A stretch of DNA of 64,000 nucleotides from Veillonellaceae bacterium DNF00626. Lineage in GTDB: Bacteria > Bacillota > Negativicutes > Veillonellales > Dialisteraceae. The position numbers and the translations under genes are program-made. Below, piece by piece: positions 32,147 to 39,178 of the stretch; within the stretch, counting starts at the first letter, position 1; every line of letters begins with the position of its first letter. Below the pieces are notes generated by a model that was not told the origin of the DNA, did not search any database, and saw nothing but the letters and a program-made list of their open reading frames with translations. Location: NCBI GenBank assembly GCA_001553355.1, contig KQ960876.1:62001-126000 (forward strand). Direction: 5' to 3'.

Positions 32147-32235
32147 GGAGCGGTATCGAAGTGGTCATAACGGGGCTGACTCGAAATCAGTTGTACAGCA
32201 ATGTACCGTGGGTTCGAATCCCACCCGCTCCGCCA
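32147..32235 (+). tRNA. tRNA-Ser (CGA anticodon)
   Basis: The 89-base tRNA has the acceptor stem GGAGCGG/CCGCTCC (32147-32153 with 32225-32231), G discriminator and an encoded CCA end. The anticodon loop CTCGAAA is closed by GCTGA/TCAGT and gives anticodon CGA for codon UCG. The T arm reads GTGGGTTCGAATCCCAC. A long variable arm with GTAC pairing is typical of serine tRNAs. T-rich sequence follows directly. Confidence 0.96.
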
Positions 32236-32588: not shown

Positions 32589-32852
32589 TTAAAATTCGTA
32601 ATGACTCCACATGCTAATAATTTTTACTGTTTTTACATCTTCAATAACTTCATATACCAAACGATGCTTGATATTAATTCTTCTTGAATATAACCCATCT
32701 AAATCTCCCACCAATTTTTCAAATCGTGGTGGTACATGAAACGGATCTTTCTTTATTAACTCTACCAAAGCCTTTGCTTTTACTGCTAATCCTACCACCC
32801 TAAGTTTAGAAATATCCGCTTTTGCCCCTTTGGTATAGACGATGGTATACAT
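32589..32852 (-). CDS. yoeB: Toxin of the YoeB family (mRNA interferase)
   Basis: The 87-residue protein matches YoeB, with RRINIKHRLVYEV near residue 57 and the C-terminal IISMWSHYEF carrying the catalytic His84 and Tyr85. YoeB cuts mRNA in the ribosomal A site. The ATG at 32850-32852 overlaps the antitoxin stop by one base (TAATG), and GAGGTGGAG provides the ribosome site within the antitoxin gene. All expected C-terminal residues are present, so it appears functional. Confidence 0.93.
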   Translation of the reverse strand: MYTIVYTKGAKADISKLRVVGLAVKAKALVELIKKDPFHVPPRFEKLVGDLDGLYSRRINIKHRLVYEVIEDVKTVKIISMWSHYEF

Positions 32853-33100
32853 TACCACTCCACCTCATCTTCCGGAATACATTTTTCTATCGGTGTATTT
32901 TTACCTTCAACAAGCTTTTCTTTCATTCCGGGAATAGACATTAAGTATACCGTTTCCATAAGTCCGTTATAATCATCTTCACTAAGTAAAACAACATTCC
33001 CCGATTTCGTACTGACATTAACCGGCTCATTATATGTAACCGTTTGTTCCAATAACCCAAATATATTTTTTCTAAAATTTGTAACATTCACATGTAACAT
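32852..33100 (-). CDS. yefM: Antitoxin of the YefM/Phd family
   Basis: The 82-residue protein has the Phd/YefM N-terminal DNA-binding fold, with NVTNFRKNIFGLLEQ followed by VVLLSEDDYNGLMETVYL. It should neutralise YoeB and repress the operon. The ATG at 33098-33100 was chosen because AAGGGGGG stands just before it; an upstream in-frame start overlaps the promoter. It is coupled to the toxin by a one-base overlap. Confidence 0.93.
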   Translation of the reverse strand: MLHVNVTNFRKNIFGLLEQTVTYNEPVNVSTKSGNVVLLSEDDYNGLMETVYLMSIPGMKEKLVEGKNTPIEKCIPEDEVEW

Positions 33101-33117
33101 GATATCGCCCCCCTTGC

Positions 33118-33150
33118 GTACATTATAACGTACATTATTACTATTAGCAA
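33118..33150 (-). promoter_or_regulatory. Promoter and palindromic operator of yefM-yoeB
   Basis: On the minus strand TTGCTA (33145-33150) and TATAAT (33122-33127) are 17 bases apart. The -10 is embedded in an imperfect palindrome with GTAC at both ends (33118-33133), typical of autoregulated YefM operators, where TGTACA-like cores are common. Confidence 0.65.
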
Positions 33151-33154
33151 TCAC

Positions 33155-33476: not shown

Positions 33477-33483
33477 GATATTA

Positions 33484-33564
33484 TGGTGCAGGGGAACATA
33501 TTGTTGAGAGGACATACGTCCGACCCTTTGAACCTGTAGGTTAATACCTGCGTAGGGAGCACCC
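33484..33564 (+). promoter_or_regulatory. TPP riboswitch (THI element)
   Basis: The aptamer has closing stem GGTGC (33485-33489)/GCACC (33559-33563), the pyrophosphate and pyrimidine sensor motifs TTGAGAGG and ACCCTTTGAACCTG, then TTAATACCTGCGTAGGGA. These are hallmark TPP sequences; the usual CTGAGA appears here as TTGAGA. Downstream, CACCCC (from 33560) can pair with GGGGTG (33577-33582), an alternative to the closing stem. The GGAGGG ribosome site follows at 33595. No T-tract is seen, so control is probably at translation initiation. Confidence 0.93.
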
Positions 33565-33605
33565 CCGTTTTCGTGTGGGGTGACTTGCGCGAAAGGAGGG
33601 ATAAT

Positions 33606-34127
33606 ATGAATACACGAACCATAGTCGAAGGAGGACTTTGTGTAGCATTGACACTCATATTGGGCTGGATTACTTTTTGGAAAATGCCCCAAGGAGGATC
33701 GATTCATGCAGCACACATGGTACCTCTTTTATTATTTGCCTTACGCCGAGGAACTTGGGCGGGGATACTGGCAGGCATCGCATACGGTGCTTTACATTTT
33801 TTGATCGGTGCCAAATATTCCCTACAGCCGCTATCCATTTTATTGGATTACCTACTGGCATACGGCGTGCTTGGTCTGGCAGGACTTGCAGGAACGTATC
33901 CTGCTAAGTATAAGGGACTCTTGGTCGCACTTGGTGCTATGCTTTGCCGCATGATTTGCAGCATTCTATCCGGTGCTATCGTCTTTGCTGCATATGCACC
34001 GGCAGGCATGAATCCGTGGCTCTATTCAATTAGTTACAACAGCAGTGTCATGCTACCCGACATCGCCATCAACTTAATTGTACTGTGGATTCTTTATCAA
34101 AAAGTCGTCCGTTTACCTCGTACCTGA
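33606..34127 (+). CDS. thiT: Thiamine ECF transporter S component ThiT
   Basis: The 173-residue protein has six predicted membrane segments and the ThiT signature, including LGWITFWKMPQGGSI near residue 20 and GIAYGALHFLIG. It is the thiamine-binding subunit of an energy-coupling-factor importer; the shared EcfA and EcfT module is not in this window. The ATG at 33606 is preceded by AAAGGAGGG, and the TPP riboswitch upstream confirms the thiamine role. A longer frame starting inside the riboswitch is spurious. It is followed by a strong terminator, so it is monocistronic. Confidence 0.94.
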   Translation: MNTRTIVEGGLCVALTLILGWITFWKMPQGGSIHAAHMVPLLLFALRRGTWAGILAGIAYGALHFLIGAKYSLQPLSILLDYLLAYGVLGLAGLAGTYPAKYKGLLVALGAMLCRMICSILSGAIVFAAYAPAGMNPWLYSISYNSSVMLPDIAINLIVLWILYQKVVRLPRT

Positions 34128-34278: not shown

Positions 34279-34761
34279 CTATAAGTGTGATATTTCTTTT
34301 CCCTTATTAGTTTTATCATCATAAGCCCATATATCAACTTGAAAAGCGATATTATCATCTTTCACCGTCGCTTCCCGAAGTGCTACATTCATCCATATAT
34401 CTTTAGTGCTTATCATATCAAAAGCTGTCGCAATTTGAGAAAATTTTCCTTTTCCCTTTACATGAAATATGATAATTGGTCTTTCTTCTTCTGACGTTTT
34501 TTCTTCTATTTCTTCTATGTAACAGCCGGCTTCTTCAAATGATTGGGAAATATCTGTCATGCTCGGCTTTCGCAAGAAATTATTCAAAAATTTCGTTCGT
34601 CCTTCTTTTTTTGTCTTACTTTCCCAGGCATCAATGCTTGTAATTATTTTTTCTGTTTCTTGTATTTCTTCTTTCATCTCTTGTATTTTTGTAGTAATGA
34701 AAAGACTTAATGTAAAACATAGGCAAATCGTTAAAAGGCAAATTTTTCTTGTTCCCATCAT
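34279..34761 (-). CDS. PilO-like type IV pilus assembly protein
   Basis: The 160-residue protein has an N-terminal membrane helix (residues 6-23), a coiled-coil segment rich in Glu and Lys (26-45), and an alpha/beta C-terminal part with IIFHVKGKGKFSQIATAFDMI. This is the layout of PilO/GspM, which bridges the inner membrane platform with PilN. Sequence identity is too low for certainty, and the position after a PilM-PilN fusion is the main support. It overlaps that gene by 4 bases and is the last gene of the pilus unit. Confidence 0.65.
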   Translation of the reverse strand: MMGTRKICLLTICLCFTLSLFITTKIQEMKEEIQETEKIITSIDAWESKTKKEGRTKFLNNFLRKPSMTDISQSFEEAGCYIEEIEEKTSEEERPIIIFHVKGKGKFSQIATAFDMISTKDIWMNVALREATVKDDNIAFQVDIWAYDDKTNKGKEISHL

Positions 34762-36227
34762 GCATCCTCCTTTTGCCTTTTACAGGTAATAGAAAAGGTC
34801 ATCATAGATAAACCTTTTCCATGTCCTTTCATGTGCATAATCGTTTTCACTTGCCAAAAGCGTTCTATATTTCCCATAAATTCTTCGGCTTTCTCTTTAT
34901 TCGATGCACTACCGTTAATAGTAATATCTTCATCTGTTGCATGAATTTCTCGAATAACTACGCCTAAAGGTGTCGCTTCTGACAACATTACCCATTTTGA
35001 TTCCCATCGTTCATTTTCTTTTTCTATATTTTTCCATTCATCTATCCGATTTGCCTCTTCTTTTAATATTTTCTTCTCATTCTCCATTTGTTGCCGCAAA
35101 TTTTCTTTTCCTAACAGAATTTCTTGAGTCTGCTCTTTTTCATAATATACATATCCACCGTAAACACTATAAAAAAATGTTAATAAGCAAATAGCCACAG
35201 TAGCATTTTTCCATACCATTTTATGAGTTTCTGTATTTTCATTTCCTAAGTCAGTGTTCCGATGAAAAAGAAAATCAATATTCGTCTGTTCCATGTCCTT
35301 CCACCACGTCGAAGGAAGTTCGTTCATAAAGTTTTTCACTATATTCGCATAGCTATCTTCTGCCGTTTCTATTTTTTCTACGTTTTCATCATTAGTCATA
35401 ATTTCTTCATTATTATTTTTGCTTTTCCAAAAGGAAATGCACGTTTTCCAATAGGAAAAACTTTCTGCCGTGCAATCATGTAATGGAAATATCATAATAT
35501 CTTCCGATCGAATGCTATACACTTCTCGTTGTCTTGTAATAAATACCTTCCCTATTTCCATCGCGGTTTCTTTTGGTATAATTCTCATCGATTCTCCTCG
35601 CCGATGACGAGAAATAAAAAGTGCTGATTTTTCTTTACAAAATAAATAAAATCCCTCTTTATGGTTAGCTCGAATAAGTGCTGTCAACGGAACGATTTGT
35701 TTTATTTGAATCATTTCAGCTTTTGCTGCTGCCATCAGATCATCTACAACCGTTTTACGTACGGCAGTAGCAGAAACCACGCAATCCATAGCATCATGAG
35801 AAATAATATCCCATGCCACAGATACGTCAAAAGAGACGGTAAACATCCTATCCTGATCCCAATAAAGTGTTTCTTCTAATTCTTCATCTGTCATAGCCGG
35901 AAATCGCTTTGATGCCAAGCGCAAATCACTACAGTTATATAAAATATGCCAAACTTTCTTTGGTATTCCTTTTTCAATAAGTTCCTGAAAAGCTGAAATA
36001 AAGCCTTCTTTTGACTTCTCCGGTAATGTAGCCGTAATAACATCATTCACTAAAGTGGTCGTATAATCTTTTCTTTCTTCATCAATATTTTGTATTTCTT
36101 CATCAGTCACAACCTTAGCACATAATTGATTACCGTCAAACCAAATCCATACTGACGGTGCAGTAAAAGGCCATCTCTTTTTTAATACACTTATCCCATG
36201 TACCCATAATTCCTTATACCTTACCAC
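34758..36227 (-). CDS. PilM-PilN fusion, type IV pilus inner-membrane platform protein
   Basis: The 489-residue protein looks like two pilus proteins in one chain. Residues 1 to about 230 resemble the actin-like PilM, with APSVWIWFDGNQLCAKVV and FPAMTDEELEETLYWDQ. After a variable Glu/Asn-rich linker, a membrane helix (about residues 347-365, NATVAICLLTFFYSVYGG), a coiled coil, and a ferredoxin-like domain with PLGVVIREIHATDEDITINGSA follow, as in PilN. The start is a GTG at 36225-36227 with only a distant G-rich ribosome site. It resembles GspL of type II secretion in overall plan. Confidence 0.7.
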   Translation of the reverse strand: MVRYKELWVHGISVLKKRWPFTAPSVWIWFDGNQLCAKVVTDEEIQNIDEERKDYTTTLVNDVITATLPEKSKEGFISAFQELIEKGIPKKVWHILYNCSDLRLASKRFPAMTDEELEETLYWDQDRMFTVSFDVSVAWDIISHDAMDCVVSATAVRKTVVDDLMAAAKAEMIQIKQIVPLTALIRANHKEGFYLFCKEKSALFISRHRRGESMRIIPKETAMEIGKVFITRQREVYSIRSEDIMIFPLHDCTAESFSYWKTCISFWKSKNNNEEIMTNDENVEKIETAEDSYANIVKNFMNELPSTWWKDMEQTNIDFLFHRNTDLGNENTETHKMVWKNATVAICLLTFFYSVYGGYVYYEKEQTQEILLGKENLRQQMENEKKILKEEANRIDEWKNIEKENERWESKWVMLSEATPLGVVIREIHATDEDITINGSASNKEKAEEFMGNIERFWQVKTIMHMKGHGKGLSMMTFSITCKRQKEDA

Positions 36228-36347
36228 TCTTGATTTCCCCCACTTTTAACATCTTGACTATACTCAAAAATCCATCCTTTTATCTCAGCTTTATTCATAA
36301 TTATTTTGCAAAATTTTTATATCATTTTATTTTACTTGATTATATCA

Positions 36348-36785
36348 CTACTTCCCATATAATGAATTCCAATCTTGATAGACATTATCGCTCTTAATAT
36401 ATTCTACTTCTACTTTACCCTTTTCTTTTACAGATACAAGTAATGTCACTCCGCCCACAGTTTCTGTTTTCTTATCACATCCTTCCGATGTAATTTCCCA
36501 CAATTTTTCTTTGCCGCTGTTTTTTATTTCCTTTATTTTCACTTTCGCTTCTCCATCACCAACAGGGAACGTAATTTGTTTCTTTTTTATTCCATATCTT
36601 TTTATATATTCCAGTGCCCAATTTGCTCCACTTTCTGCCATATATCGTGCGCAAATAGCATTTTTATAACGCTCGCGCACCATCATACTTCGAGATTGAT
36701 AAAAGAGAAATGCTGCTGTAATAGTCATAAGTGCTGATAAAAATAATAAAATGGTAAGACCTATCATTCCTTTATGATGACGCAT
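36348..36785 (-). CDS. Minor pilin-like protein (PilX/GspK type)
   Basis: The 145-residue protein starts HHKG then MIGLTILLFLSAL, a class III prepilin leader with cleavage after Gly and a hydrophobic helix. The +5 glutamate typical of major pilins is replaced by Thr, as in tip-type pilins. The globular part contains ARYMAESGANWALEYIKR, similar to the PilX/GspK region AESG. The ATG at 36783-36785 has AAGGAA upstream and overlaps the preceding gene by 14 bases. A longer frame start is less likely. Confidence 0.7.
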   Translation of the reverse strand: MRHHKGMIGLTILLFLSALMTITAAFLFYQSRSMMVRERYKNAICARYMAESGANWALEYIKRYGIKKKQITFPVGDGEAKVKIKEIKNSGKEKLWEITSEGCDKKTETVGGVTLLVSVKEKGKVEVEYIKSDNVYQDWNSLYGK

Positions 36786-37302
36786 AACGCTTTCCTTGAT
36801 ATAAATCTTCATAAGGGACCACTGCTGTTCGTATTTCATAAAGCTGCTCTCCATTTTCTTTCCCGAATTTATAAAAAATCTCTACTAACCCATGACGTTT
36901 CACTCGAAAAACTCTGCCATCTGCCAGTGGAAATACTTTTACATCCCCTTCTTTTTCACTACCGCCGGTAATCGGTTGAATAACACCGTTATAAAGCTGT
37001 ACATACAAAGATTTCCCAATCAAACGAAATTCATACCGCAATCGTTCCCGAATCAGATTACCACGGTAAAACGCATATCTATCTCCTTCTTTTGCTTCTT
37101 TCGTCCGTGCTCGATTATTTTTTATATGCTCAATCATAAGATCTGTCGCCCAGACGCCTTGTTCTACCGCTTGACTTCGCTCCATCACAAGTCTTTCCCC
37201 GGATAAGAACTCACGAAATAACGGAAATATAAATAATGCAAGAGACGCCATAAGCATAAGTGCTATTAAAAGTTCCATTAAAATAAATCCTTTATGCCTC
37301 AT
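36772..37302 (-). CDS. Minor pilin (PilW/ComGF-like prepilin)
   Basis: The 176-residue protein has a clear prepilin leader, RHKG|FILMELLIALMLMASL, with Glu at +5 and a conserved hydrophobic helix. The C-terminal domain is beta-rich (YAFYRGNLIRERLRYEFRL, VFRVKRHGLVEIFYKF) and matches no single family obviously; PilW- and ComGF-like proteins are the nearest types. It overlaps both neighbours by a few bases, consistent with a tightly coupled pilus operon. Confidence 0.75.
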   Translation of the reverse strand: MRHKGFILMELLIALMLMASLALFIFPLFREFLSGERLVMERSQAVEQGVWATDLMIEHIKNNRARTKEAKEGDRYAFYRGNLIRERLRYEFRLIGKSLYVQLYNGVIQPITGGSEKEGDVKVFPLADGRVFRVKRHGLVEIFYKFGKENGEQLYEIRTAVVPYEDLYQGKRYASS

Positions 37303-37667
37303 CTCGGCACCTCCATATCAAGAGTAGCAGAAAAAGAGAATTTTCCATTTGCTGATACTGTACAAACCAATTCTGTTAACGGGACACCGTCCACATCAAT
37401 TCTTATCTCTTTAAGAGAAACTTGATACACTCTTCCGTTACGCATTACTTCTCCCGTCGGATAAGGTACAGATTCATGAAATACACGATTGTATTTTTGT
37501 ATTTCCAATACTTCTTGAACTAAAAACATTTCATCCGCCACCACTTCTCCTATACGTTCTCGATGAAATGTTTCTCGTATACCCAAAAATACAGAAGGTA
37601 GTAAAAGTAATACAACTGCCACCACTATGACAGTCCATAAAAGAAATACTCCTTTTCTACGTTTCAT
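37299..37667 (-). CDS. Minor pilin-like protein without +5 glutamate
   Basis: The 122-residue protein starts MKRRKG|VFLLWTVIVVAVVLLL, a short basic leader and hydrophobic helix compatible with prepilin peptidase, but position +5 is Trp rather than Glu. The rest is small and beta-rich. The ATG at 37665-37667 is chosen with GTGGGTG upstream; a GTG two codons earlier overlaps the fimT-like stop. The family is not recognised beyond pilin-like; the neighbours are what support the role. Confidence 0.6.
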   Translation of the reverse strand: MKRRKGVFLLWTVIVVAVVLLLLPSVFLGIRETFHRERIGEVVADEMFLVQEVLEIQKYNRVFHESVPYPTGEVMRNGRVYQVSLKEIRIDVDGVPLTELVCTVSANGKFSFSATLDMEVPR

Positions 37668-37669
37668 AG

Positions 37670-38167
37670 TCACCCACTTGTCACACGCACACGTTTTGTA
37701 TACATCGCTATCGTAATATAACGAAAAAATTTCCTTTTTTTCGTATATAAGGTTATTACCGAATCATTATCTTTAGCAGCAAAACGATTTTTATAAAAAA
37801 TAATAAGCGCTGCACCATTCGCTAAAAAAACACCTTCCGGAAGCACCCCCGCCGGCTGCACATTCATCACATTCTGTGCCAGTCGATAATGCACTCTCCC
37901 ATCAGAACCATTCTCACAAGTAAACATTACCGGTCCCATATTTCCGTTGATCCCACCCTTCCCACCGGAACGAGCCATTATCTGTGCCTCTCGAATAACC
38001 GCTGAAAGCTCCATCGTCGCCACCTCTAATCTATGTTCCTCGAGCCATCGATCATATGACAGACATACAAACCCCAAAGATACGGATAAAAGTACTACCA
38101 CAAAAAGAAGCTCAACCAAAATATAACCGGCATATCTCCCACCACCACGGTGACAAAGAGAACCCAT
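37670..38167 (-). CDS. Pseudopilin of the GspH/FimT type
   Basis: The 165-residue protein has a prepilin leader ending YAG|YILVELLFVVVLLSVSLG with Glu at +5, and the GspH/FimT pattern in its start of globular domain (HRLEVATMELSAVIREAQIMARSGG). The C-terminal sequence ends in short beta strands. The ATG at 38165-38167 is preceded by GGTGGAG. It overlaps the end of the prepilin peptidase gene by 56 bases, an unusually long but plausible overlap. Confidence 0.75.
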   Translation of the reverse strand: MGSLCHRGGGRYAGYILVELLFVVVLLSVSLGFVCLSYDRWLEEHRLEVATMELSAVIREAQIMARSGGKGGINGNMGPVMFTCENGSDGRVHYRLAQNVMNVQPAGVLPEGVFLANGAALIIFYKNRFAAKDNDSVITLYTKKRKFFRYITIAMYTKRVRVTSG

Positions 38168-38678
38168 ACGCACACACTCCACCTAATGAAATAAAAGGAA
38201 TAAAGAAAATCGCTGACTGCAACGACTGCTTCCTTCTACAAAGTAAAACAACAGAAAAAACAGCCGCACTCAGAAAAGAAAGCCATACAAAAAATGCAGC
38301 AGACAAAGGAGAAAACCACCATGCCACAGCTGAGGACAAAATGACATCTCCGGCTCCTATAGCCCCACGAGCCAAAACAAAAAGAAGAACAAAAAATAAA
38401 GTTACTCCTGCAAAAGAAAGAAAAGCATCCCACATACGCCCCATCATCAATGCATCAAAACAACCAACTATCATCGTGCCCAAAGCCCATGTATCAGATA
38501 CAAAACCGGTTCGTGCATCTTCTACCGCCGGAAAAATCAAAAGCCAAACAAGTGCTAAAAAAGGAGAATACAGCCAAAGGAAAAAGGCCAAAGAAAGCCA
38601 TAAAACCCACAAAAAAAGAGATACCTTGCCATCGCGCCAAAAGCGCCCTAATGCCCGATATCTCCATAAATTTTCCAT
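38112..38678 (-). CDS. Prepilin peptidase (type IV leader peptidase, A24 family), short form
   Basis: The 188-residue membrane protein has several hydrophobic segments and both catalytic aspartates of the A24 family: Asp54 in FPAVEDARTG and Asp111 in the GxGD motif GAGD. Typical PilD proteins are about 250 residues with an N-terminal cysteine-containing cytoplasmic domain linked to methylation. That domain is absent, so this one may only cleave. The ATG at 38676-38678 has AGAGGAAA upstream. It follows the pilin gene by 10 bases. A plus-strand frame over this region is a shadow. Confidence 0.85.
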   Translation of the reverse strand: MENLWRYRALGRFWRDGKVSLFLWVLWLSLAFFLWLYSPFLALVWLLIFPAVEDARTGFVSDTWALGTMIVGCFDALMMGRMWDAFLSFAGVTLFFVLLFVLARGAIGAGDVILSSAVAWWFSPLSAAFFVWLSFLSAAVFSVVLLCRRKQSLQSAIFFIPFISLGGVCAYGFSLSPWWWEICRLYFG

Positions 38679-38688
38679 AAAATTTCCT

Positions 38689-39078
38689 CTACTGCGCTGC
38701 TTTCTTACCAAAAGACGAATATGTAACGCCCTTAAAAGAACAAGTCACCTCACCTGTTTTCTTATTAATAGCATATGAAACATCCTTTGCCGGAGGTACC
38801 GGATCACTACGAAGAAAACCTTCCTTTCCCTCCGAAGAAACCAGATCCGCCACAGCCGAAGGATAAGTTCCATTTCGCACATAATACATCTCAGCCGCGG
38901 AACCGATAGTAGATAAATCTGCCTGAATCCGTGCTATCTTCGCCTCATCAGTCATACCGGTGAAATGAGGAATAGCTACCGCCGCCAAAATACCTACAAT
39001 GGCAATCACCAAAAGCAATTCCAACAACATAAATCCTTTTCTCTTTTTCTTCATACAATGCATTATTCTGTTCATCAT
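38689..39078 (-). CDS. Major type IV pilin-like protein
   Basis: The 129-residue prepilin has the leader KKKRKG|FMLLELLLVIAIVGILAAVAIPHF with Glu at +5 and the well-conserved N-terminal helix. The small C-terminal domain has the pseudopilin GspG-like pattern IQADLSTIGSAAEMYYVRNGTYP and a single Cys. The ATG at 39076-39078 follows AAGGAGA. It is the first gene of the pilus operon and carries a consensus promoter. A major pilin or GspG/ComGC-type pseudopilin cannot be separated by sequence alone. Confidence 0.88.
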   Translation of the reverse strand: MMNRIMHCMKKKRKGFMLLELLLVIAIVGILAAVAIPHFTGMTDEAKIARIQADLSTIGSAAEMYYVRNGTYPSAVADLVSSEGKEGFLRSDPVPPAKDVSYAINKKTGEVTCSFKGVTYSSFGKKAAQ

Positions 39079-39149
39079 AAATCTCCTTATAGAAATACTA
39101 TTCATGATATGCATTAATTATTTGTAAAAAAGCAAAAGTAATTAACCAA

Positions 39150-39178
39150 AATATAATACACGTTCTGTTTCTTGTCAA
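39150..39178 (-). promoter_or_regulatory. Promoter of the pilus operon
   Basis: Consensus TTGACA (39173-39178) and TATATT (39150-39155) are exactly 17 bases apart on the minus strand, about 70 bases before the pilin ATG. The divergent gap 39079-39385 otherwise holds only a plus-strand TATAAT (39340-39345) serving the DUF4127 gene; I see nothing else in it. Confidence 0.8.

Follow-up and report, generated by a model that had tools for sequence, protein, structure and literature searches.

In Veillonella parvula, transformation is reported to depend on a competence/type IV pilus locus, VPAR_RS05490-5435 (PMC5397411), and in Clostridioides difficile the joining of PilM and PilN within a pilus system is already published (PMC6916266). 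GspL of type II secretion is described as the counterpart of PilM plus PilN (PMC10191384, PMC4471445), and Negativicutes pilus loci and secretins are covered in PMC5007114 and PMC5491611. Here we analyzed a 64,000-nt stretch of the genome of Veillonellaceae bacterium DNF00626 (the window, whose positions are given below unless a contig (C) or locus (L) label is attached), which contains an eight-gene type IV pilus locus with a PilM-PilN fusion gene, pilMN. A retractable type IVa-type pilus, most likely used for DNA uptake, is very probably what this Dialister locus serves: it would encode the pilins, the enzyme that processes them and the base in the inner membrane, and genes for the remaining components are found elsewhere in the genome. 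What is new is the presence of PilM-PilN fusions in four Negativicutes families (f1, f2, f12 and f16; f labels denote families and G labels genomes, f1 being the family of this genome, G000), along with a reduced joint between motor and base in those Veillonellales that were analyzed. No publication on a PilM-PilN fusion in Dialister or Negativicutes was found among the matches listed, 15 of 438 for Dialister and five for Negativicutes, which comprised titles and abstract openings with few subscription papers, and the exact phrase 'PilM-PilN fusion' had no match in the literature search.

The pilMN gene (34758..36227, minus strand) encodes a 489-residue protein, in which an actin-like part (residues ~31-302) is followed by a membrane helix (~342-360), a coiled coil and a ferredoxin-like part (~406-485). 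Pfam recognized only PilN, at residues 415-456 and just over the cut-off (5.2e-5), while a profile built from eight PilMN relatives matched PilM (E 0.0042, profile positions 62-159) and PilN (E 0.0017, 316-443) in collinear order as two chains of one pilus-machine model, 3jc8. Four FAM155A chains with slightly better scores in the same six-row table were set aside as chance coiled-coil or low-complexity look-alikes. A structure predicted from an alignment of seven sequences yielded both an actin-like and a ferredoxin-like half. Foldseek placed PilM 5eoy first (E 1.6e-6), followed by the GspL cytoplasmic domain 4pht (3.7e-5) and FtsA, and VIA-align superposed residues 31-302 on PilM 2ych (Z 9.7, 218 residues, rmsd 5.6) and residues 407-483 on the periplasmic domain of GspL/XcpY 6ghu (Z 10.6, 74 residues, rmsd 2.3), bearing out the likeness to GspL noted in the original prediction. 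Several features of the model tell against the assignment: its confidence was low to middling (mean pLDDT 59.7, pTM 0.45), the whole-length Foldseek TM-scores for 5eoy were low (0.21 and 0.28, rmsd 16.3), and FtsA chains reached Z 8.9, about level with the PilM chains; the remaining VIA-align matches included the GspL cytoplasmic domain (Z 7.0-7.5) and unrelated ribosomal proteins (Z ~7). The predicted fold thus says actin-like plus GspL/PilN/PilO-like, and the PilM-PilN identity comes from gene order, place and the 3jc8 profile match.

A profile of the whole fusion returned only this gene in the genome, and neither PilM nor PilN turned up a second time. Two near-matches to PilM_2 were rejected as a second PilM, one being a 621-aa protein that we take to be DnaK-like and the other presumably MreB-like, followed by a presumed MreC-like neighbor, names that come from sequence character and not from a family scan; one of these near-match stretches passed the cut-off only together with its neighbors (27.4 bits). 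The original prediction had staked the fusion on an actin-like fold within residues 1-230 and on the lack of independent pilM and pilN genes, and it holds on both points. PilMN had no match in the plasmid collection.

The eight open reading frames (ORFs) of the locus all lie on the minus strand, spanning 39114 to 34279, and their predicted gene content stands on the evidence of Pfam, homology and predicted folds. The major pilin PilA (38689..39078; cleavage site G/FMLLE) passed the N_methyl cut-off (2.5e-5); its ORF opens at 39114, with the start at 39078 behind AAGGAG likelier, and among curated models IV_pilin_GFxxxE was over its cut-off while GspG scored best (8.7e-14) yet fell below its own. 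The short prepilin peptidase PilD (38112..38678; Peptidase_A24 4.5e-7, over cut-off) lacks the N-terminal A24_N domain, and its ORF opens with TTG at 38711, the start at 38678 being likelier. Four minor pilins follow in H, I, J and K positions. Those at H (37670..38182, site G/YILVE) and J (36772..37302, site G/FILME) fell below the Pfam N_methyl cut-off (0.0097 and 0.0011), as did ComGD and GspH for the former and ComGE, GspJ and ComGF for the latter, with a homologous gene in relatives for H. Those at I (37299..37673, G/VFLLW) and K (36348..36854, G/MIGLT; GspK 0.043, below cut-off) lack Glu at +5, and their identification rests on place and on homology to genes at the same place in relatives, these two and PilO having no family match over the Pfam cut-off. 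PilO (34279..34761, 160 aa) overlaps pilMN by four bases and is identified from place and predicted fold, the top match being PilO 2rjz_B (Z 12.5, 87 residues, rmsd 2.0), ahead of the periplasmic domains of GspM and GspL at Z ~10. All three N_methyl matches of the genome fall within this locus, although pilins as atypical as two of the minor ones would escape such a search.

The original prediction described eight overlapping genes read from one consensus promoter. Although closely spaced, the genes do not overlap throughout: 120 bases separate the K-position minor pilin gene from pilMN (36228-36347), and ~10 bases separate pilA from pilD when the latter starts at 38678. A site ahead of pilA (39150..39178, minus strand; TTGACA-17-TATATT) does match the consensus at 11 of 12 positions, but 16 promoter-like sites were observed across the region against 18.7 expected from shuffling, so that the site alone is no evidence for a promoter.

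No gene for a motor ATPase, PilC, PilT or a secretin lies inside the locus, as had been predicted, but the motor is not missing from the organism. A search of the whole genome (1.59 Mb in 64 contigs, 99.24% complete) located pilB, pilT and pilC head to tail by a contig end (C16:3287-110), which contradicts a system without motor genes and led us to reject their absence from the cell. The pilT gene (C16:1134-2123) sits between pilB and pilC and encodes Walker A and AIRVLP motifs, its product matching the PilT-family model with E 4.5e-87 and 292.5 bits, below the 319.1-bit cut-off. The extension ATPase, platform protein, prepilin peptidase and pilins are over the cut-offs of Pfam T2SSE, T2SSF, Peptidase_A24 and N_methyl, respectively. 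A secretin gene on C9 (Pfam Secretin, 1e-43) adjoins a PilP-like gene (PilP family 6.6e-5, below cut-off), and comEA and comEC overlap on C39 (ComEA 4.9e-22, ComEC 8.7e-60). PilC (L005:110-1132, minus strand) aligns to the GspF and PilC models only from ~57-78 on, the first ~60 residues being missing relative to these models, and to the ComGB model from position 4. Adjacent to the secretin and PilP-like genes is one for a 543-aa protein (L015:8646-10277, minus strand) that matches LptC weakly (0.02, below cut-off) and is perhaps linked to lipopolysaccharide export.

The original prediction left a pilus, a competence system or a type II-like secretion machine as candidates. If the locus were a type II secretion system, PilMN would be a true GspL and the pilins a periplasmic pseudopilus pushing proteins through the secretin, and the GspL-like architecture of PilMN, a minor pilin order resembling GspHIJK, and GspG, GspE and GspF as best-scoring curated models would all agree with this. 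However, a GspL-type architecture is common to any PilM-PilN fusion, none of GspD, GspE, GspF and GspG passed its curated cut-off (nor did the pilus models), and the PilT-type ATPase between pilB and pilC argues against type II secretion, such systems having no PilT and being described as having arisen on loss of PilT (PMC10191384). In six relatives (four of f2 and two of f12), moreover, a single run contains the fused gene together with pilB, pilT and pilC. Given this PilT and these six relatives, a type IVa-type pilus is favored over type II secretion, which we regard as highly improbable, and the presence of PilT, ComEA and ComEC together with a gene order in relatives that agrees with the V. 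parvula competence locus favors a pilus or competence role. Other observations pull the opposite way. In the curated NCBIfam models the secretin scored 210.1 bits for PilQ versus 205.0 for GspD, the motor 385.9 for GspE versus 373.4 for PilB, and the platform protein 168.5 for GspF versus 158.7 for PilC, all below cut-off; these models, with GspG best for the major pilin, do not separate pilus from secretion and lean slightly to secretion. ComEC occurs in 20 of 20 genomes examined and is therefore weak evidence for competence, and PilB of this genome lacks the tetracysteine pattern. What the analysis establishes directly is the gene content, the fusion, the predicted folds and the layouts in relatives; assembly, retraction and DNA uptake we infer.

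Relatives carry the same parts in different layouts. In f4 (G014, G056 and G017) and f3 (G013, G022, G024 and G026), pilB-pilT-pilC lie in one run with separate genes for PilM and PilN, the labels in G013 resting on place and later profiles; the order in G014 and G056 is B-T-C-A-D-four minors-M-N-O, followed by a gene that we take to be aroK. The four f2 genomes (G012, G015, G018 and G021) also have one run, with M and N fused, and the runs of all three families include O. Among the 12 f1 genomes read, three of which (G002, G003 and G005) belong to the same genus as this genome, the motor genes are displaced to varying degrees: pilB-pilT is divergent and ~1 kb from pilA in G010 and G011, and divergent nearby in G008, where pilA was not seen; pilB-pilT-pilC lies ~7 kb beyond pilMN-pilO in G001, ~23 kb away in G002 and ~320 kb away in G004; in G006 the two sets lie far apart on a single contig, at 27 kb and 1,217 kb; and in G003, G005 and G009 they are on different contigs. 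Of 20 genomes searched, 19 contain pilB, all but G007, which is 75% complete, and all 20 contain a secretin. A link between the fusion and the displaced motor operon was considered and dropped, the association being too closely tied to family membership for a test.

Among the genomes read, 9 of the 12 of f1 and all four of f2 have the fused gene as an open frame, which led us to reject the fusion as a sequencing artefact; the f1 exceptions are G006 (frameshifted), G011 (cut by a contig end) and the incomplete G007 (no match). In G001 the gene was missed by the single-sequence search and found by place. For the f2 genes, assignment as fusions is based on length, place, a single central membrane helix and alignment A5; single-sequence searching matched three of them weakly (1.2e-4 to 4.9e-4) and missed the one in G018. 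The frameshift-broken pilMN of G006 (L040:9023-10424, plus strand) lies in a one-contig 1.27-Mb genome that keeps pilB-pilT-pilC and ComEC, possibly an early loss of the pilus.

To follow the fusion across the class, 120 genomes were searched by profile, and 70 had a match at E <= 0.01; the search has misses, as G014, with both genes, is not among them. Five of the 70 had been read earlier (G000, G012, G013, G015 and G018) and 36 were fetched, the remaining 29 standing outside the counts. M and N share one open frame in 16 of the fetched genomes (nine of f12, seven of f16), are separate in 17 and are ambiguous in three (L149, L150 and L152); one f16 genome (G102) has separate genes. M support was weak for L131 (0.002), L123 (7e-5) and L124 (5e-6). 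Successive rounds broadened the M profile, whose matches overlap the N matches in several fused proteins, so its M boundaries were left unused; of the eight loci given by the contig scan, a Deltaproteobacterial PilN (L050) was kept out of the alignments. A further oddity, in G141 (L151:6830-9436, minus strand), is an 868-aa open frame with the M and N parts in its second half, the first 350 residues being accounted for by neither.

An LNLLP-type stretch at the start of PilN binds PilM. An internal LNLLP or VNLLP stretch, like the start of a free PilN, is present in 4 of 29 fused proteins (G090, G111, G129 and G144), one of which (G144) also retains a DIG loop, and to judge from their sequences these fusions look like joins of neighboring genes. 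Both patterns are absent from the 13 Veillonellales fusions. A tree of motor genes from 31 genomes places f1 plus f2 (0.998) and f12 (0.712) as separate fused groups inside a clade with the unfused f3 and f4, the f3+f4 node being weak here (0.297) and at 98 in a smaller tree. As f1, f2 and f12 form no clade, at least two changes of state are needed, and in this tree two fusions would cost the same as one fusion plus one split.

Other parts of the system also show reductions. The PilB core starts at most 44 residues from the frame start in 24 of 31 proteins (f1-f4 and f12), four PilBs of f5, f18, f24 and f25 have at least 122 more N-terminal residues, and three are cut by the fetched stretch. 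Among ten PilBs scanned with Pfam, MshEN was found in the four long ones (1.1e-20 to 2.8e-23) and, at E <= 0.01, in none of the six short ones. A strict Walker A pattern was unmatched in six uncut PilBs (f2 and f12) and eight PilTs. The nucleotide-loop pattern [GA]-x-D-[IVF]-G is present in 12 of 13 separate PilMs outside Veillonellales (exception G073), in none of 20 Veillonellales PilMs (7 separate, 13 fused), in none of nine f12 fused proteins and in one of seven of f16; being gone in separate Veillonellales PilMs as well, its loss does not need fusion. All three canonical PilMs scanned passed the Pfam PilM_2 cut-off, and none of the other seven did. The A24_N domain (PF06750), which serves pilin methylation, passed the cut-off in G077 and G121. 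None of ten Veillonellales genomes had it above cut-off; this genome gave no match at E <= 0.01, and a weak one in f2 (0.0078) contains five stops. The PilB of this genome is among 7 of 11 f1 proteins without the tetracysteine pattern, which 4 of 4 f3 and 3 of 3 f4 proteins also lack and 4 of 4 of f2 and 2 of 2 of f12 have; a review calls this pattern essential, and infers that the PilB N1 domain contacts PilM (PMC11656802). In Thermus thermophilus, PilM unable to bind ATP is reported still to bind the motor and, with PilN, to stimulate it, one motor N-domain being needed for stimulation and none for binding (PMC6325625).

These losses, with genes spread over three contigs and a pilMN frameshift in the relative G006, could also describe a decaying remnant on its way out, in which PilB has shed MshEN and the tetracysteine pattern. 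Such decay is very unlikely: this genome has an open frame for every system gene found, no Veillonellales sequence examined, f4 included, has a PilB N-terminus of MshEN size or the PilM loop, and f4 agrees in gene order with the V. parvula locus, which has been shown to work. We propose, tentatively and at somewhat under even odds, that Veillonellales rebuilt the motor-base joint of a working type IV pilus, with a PilB lacking MshEN/N1, a PilM lacking the nucleotide loop and fused to PilN in two families, and a peptidase lacking A24_N. If the pili work, a retractable pilus that imports DNA would need neither MshEN/N1 nor the PilM loop nor A24_N. Little is understood of how the motor ATPase engages with the base, and a natural lineage without N1 and the PilM loop, related to the transformable V. 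parvula, would allow a direct test of the requirements of the joint.

Within the retractable pilus that we favor, the eight-gene locus would supply the pilins, the pilin-processing enzyme and the stator/alignment base. PilMN would act as a single membrane protein, its actin-like half forming a cytoplasmic socket for the motor and its PilN half pairing with PilO in the periplasm, with PilP linking PilMN-PilO to the secretin. PilB would extend and PilT retract the filament, and DNA taken up by the pilus would be handed to ComEA and ComEC.

The locus is flanked on one side by thiT on the opposite strand and on the other by a divergent DUF4127 gene. At 33480-34127 (plus strand), a TPP riboswitch (63 bits) lies immediately upstream of the thiamine transporter gene thiT, and the window also contains a YefM-YoeB type toxin-antitoxin pair (32589-33154, minus strand; PhdYeFM_antitox 3.7e-12, YoeB_toxin 1.8e-11) and a tRNA-Ser(cga) gene (32147-32235, plus strand).

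After these corrections the system stands as a derived type IVa-type pilus that belongs to a known kind and carries a recurring fusion and a reduced joint between motor and base. With the V. parvula locus, compared by its published description, it shares two motor ATPases (the second PilT-like), the peptidase and the pilins; the V. parvula order is that of the f4 relatives, in one run of 12 genes (PMC5397411), whereas the genes of this genome lie in three places, and PilM and PilN, separate in those f4 relatives, are here fused. The C. difficile pilus, likewise of Bacillota, has a PilM-PilN fusion too, likened by description only, but in a monoderm (PMC6916266). BfpC of type IVb pili has a cytoplasmic domain of the PilM/GspL fold, a likeness taken from a review's statement only (PMC4471445). 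GspL (PulL, EpsL, XcpY) shares with PilMN an actin-like cytoplasmic half, one membrane helix and a ferredoxin-like periplasmic half, but belongs to systems without PilT, unlike this genome, and GspE docks on GspL by an N-terminal domain (PMC6325625, PMC11656802) that PilB of this genome lacks. The recurring fusion illustrates a route to a GspL-like protein, the joining of neighboring pilM and pilN genes, and if the Veillonellales pili work as proposed, a GspL-like subunit arose more than once outside type II secretion.

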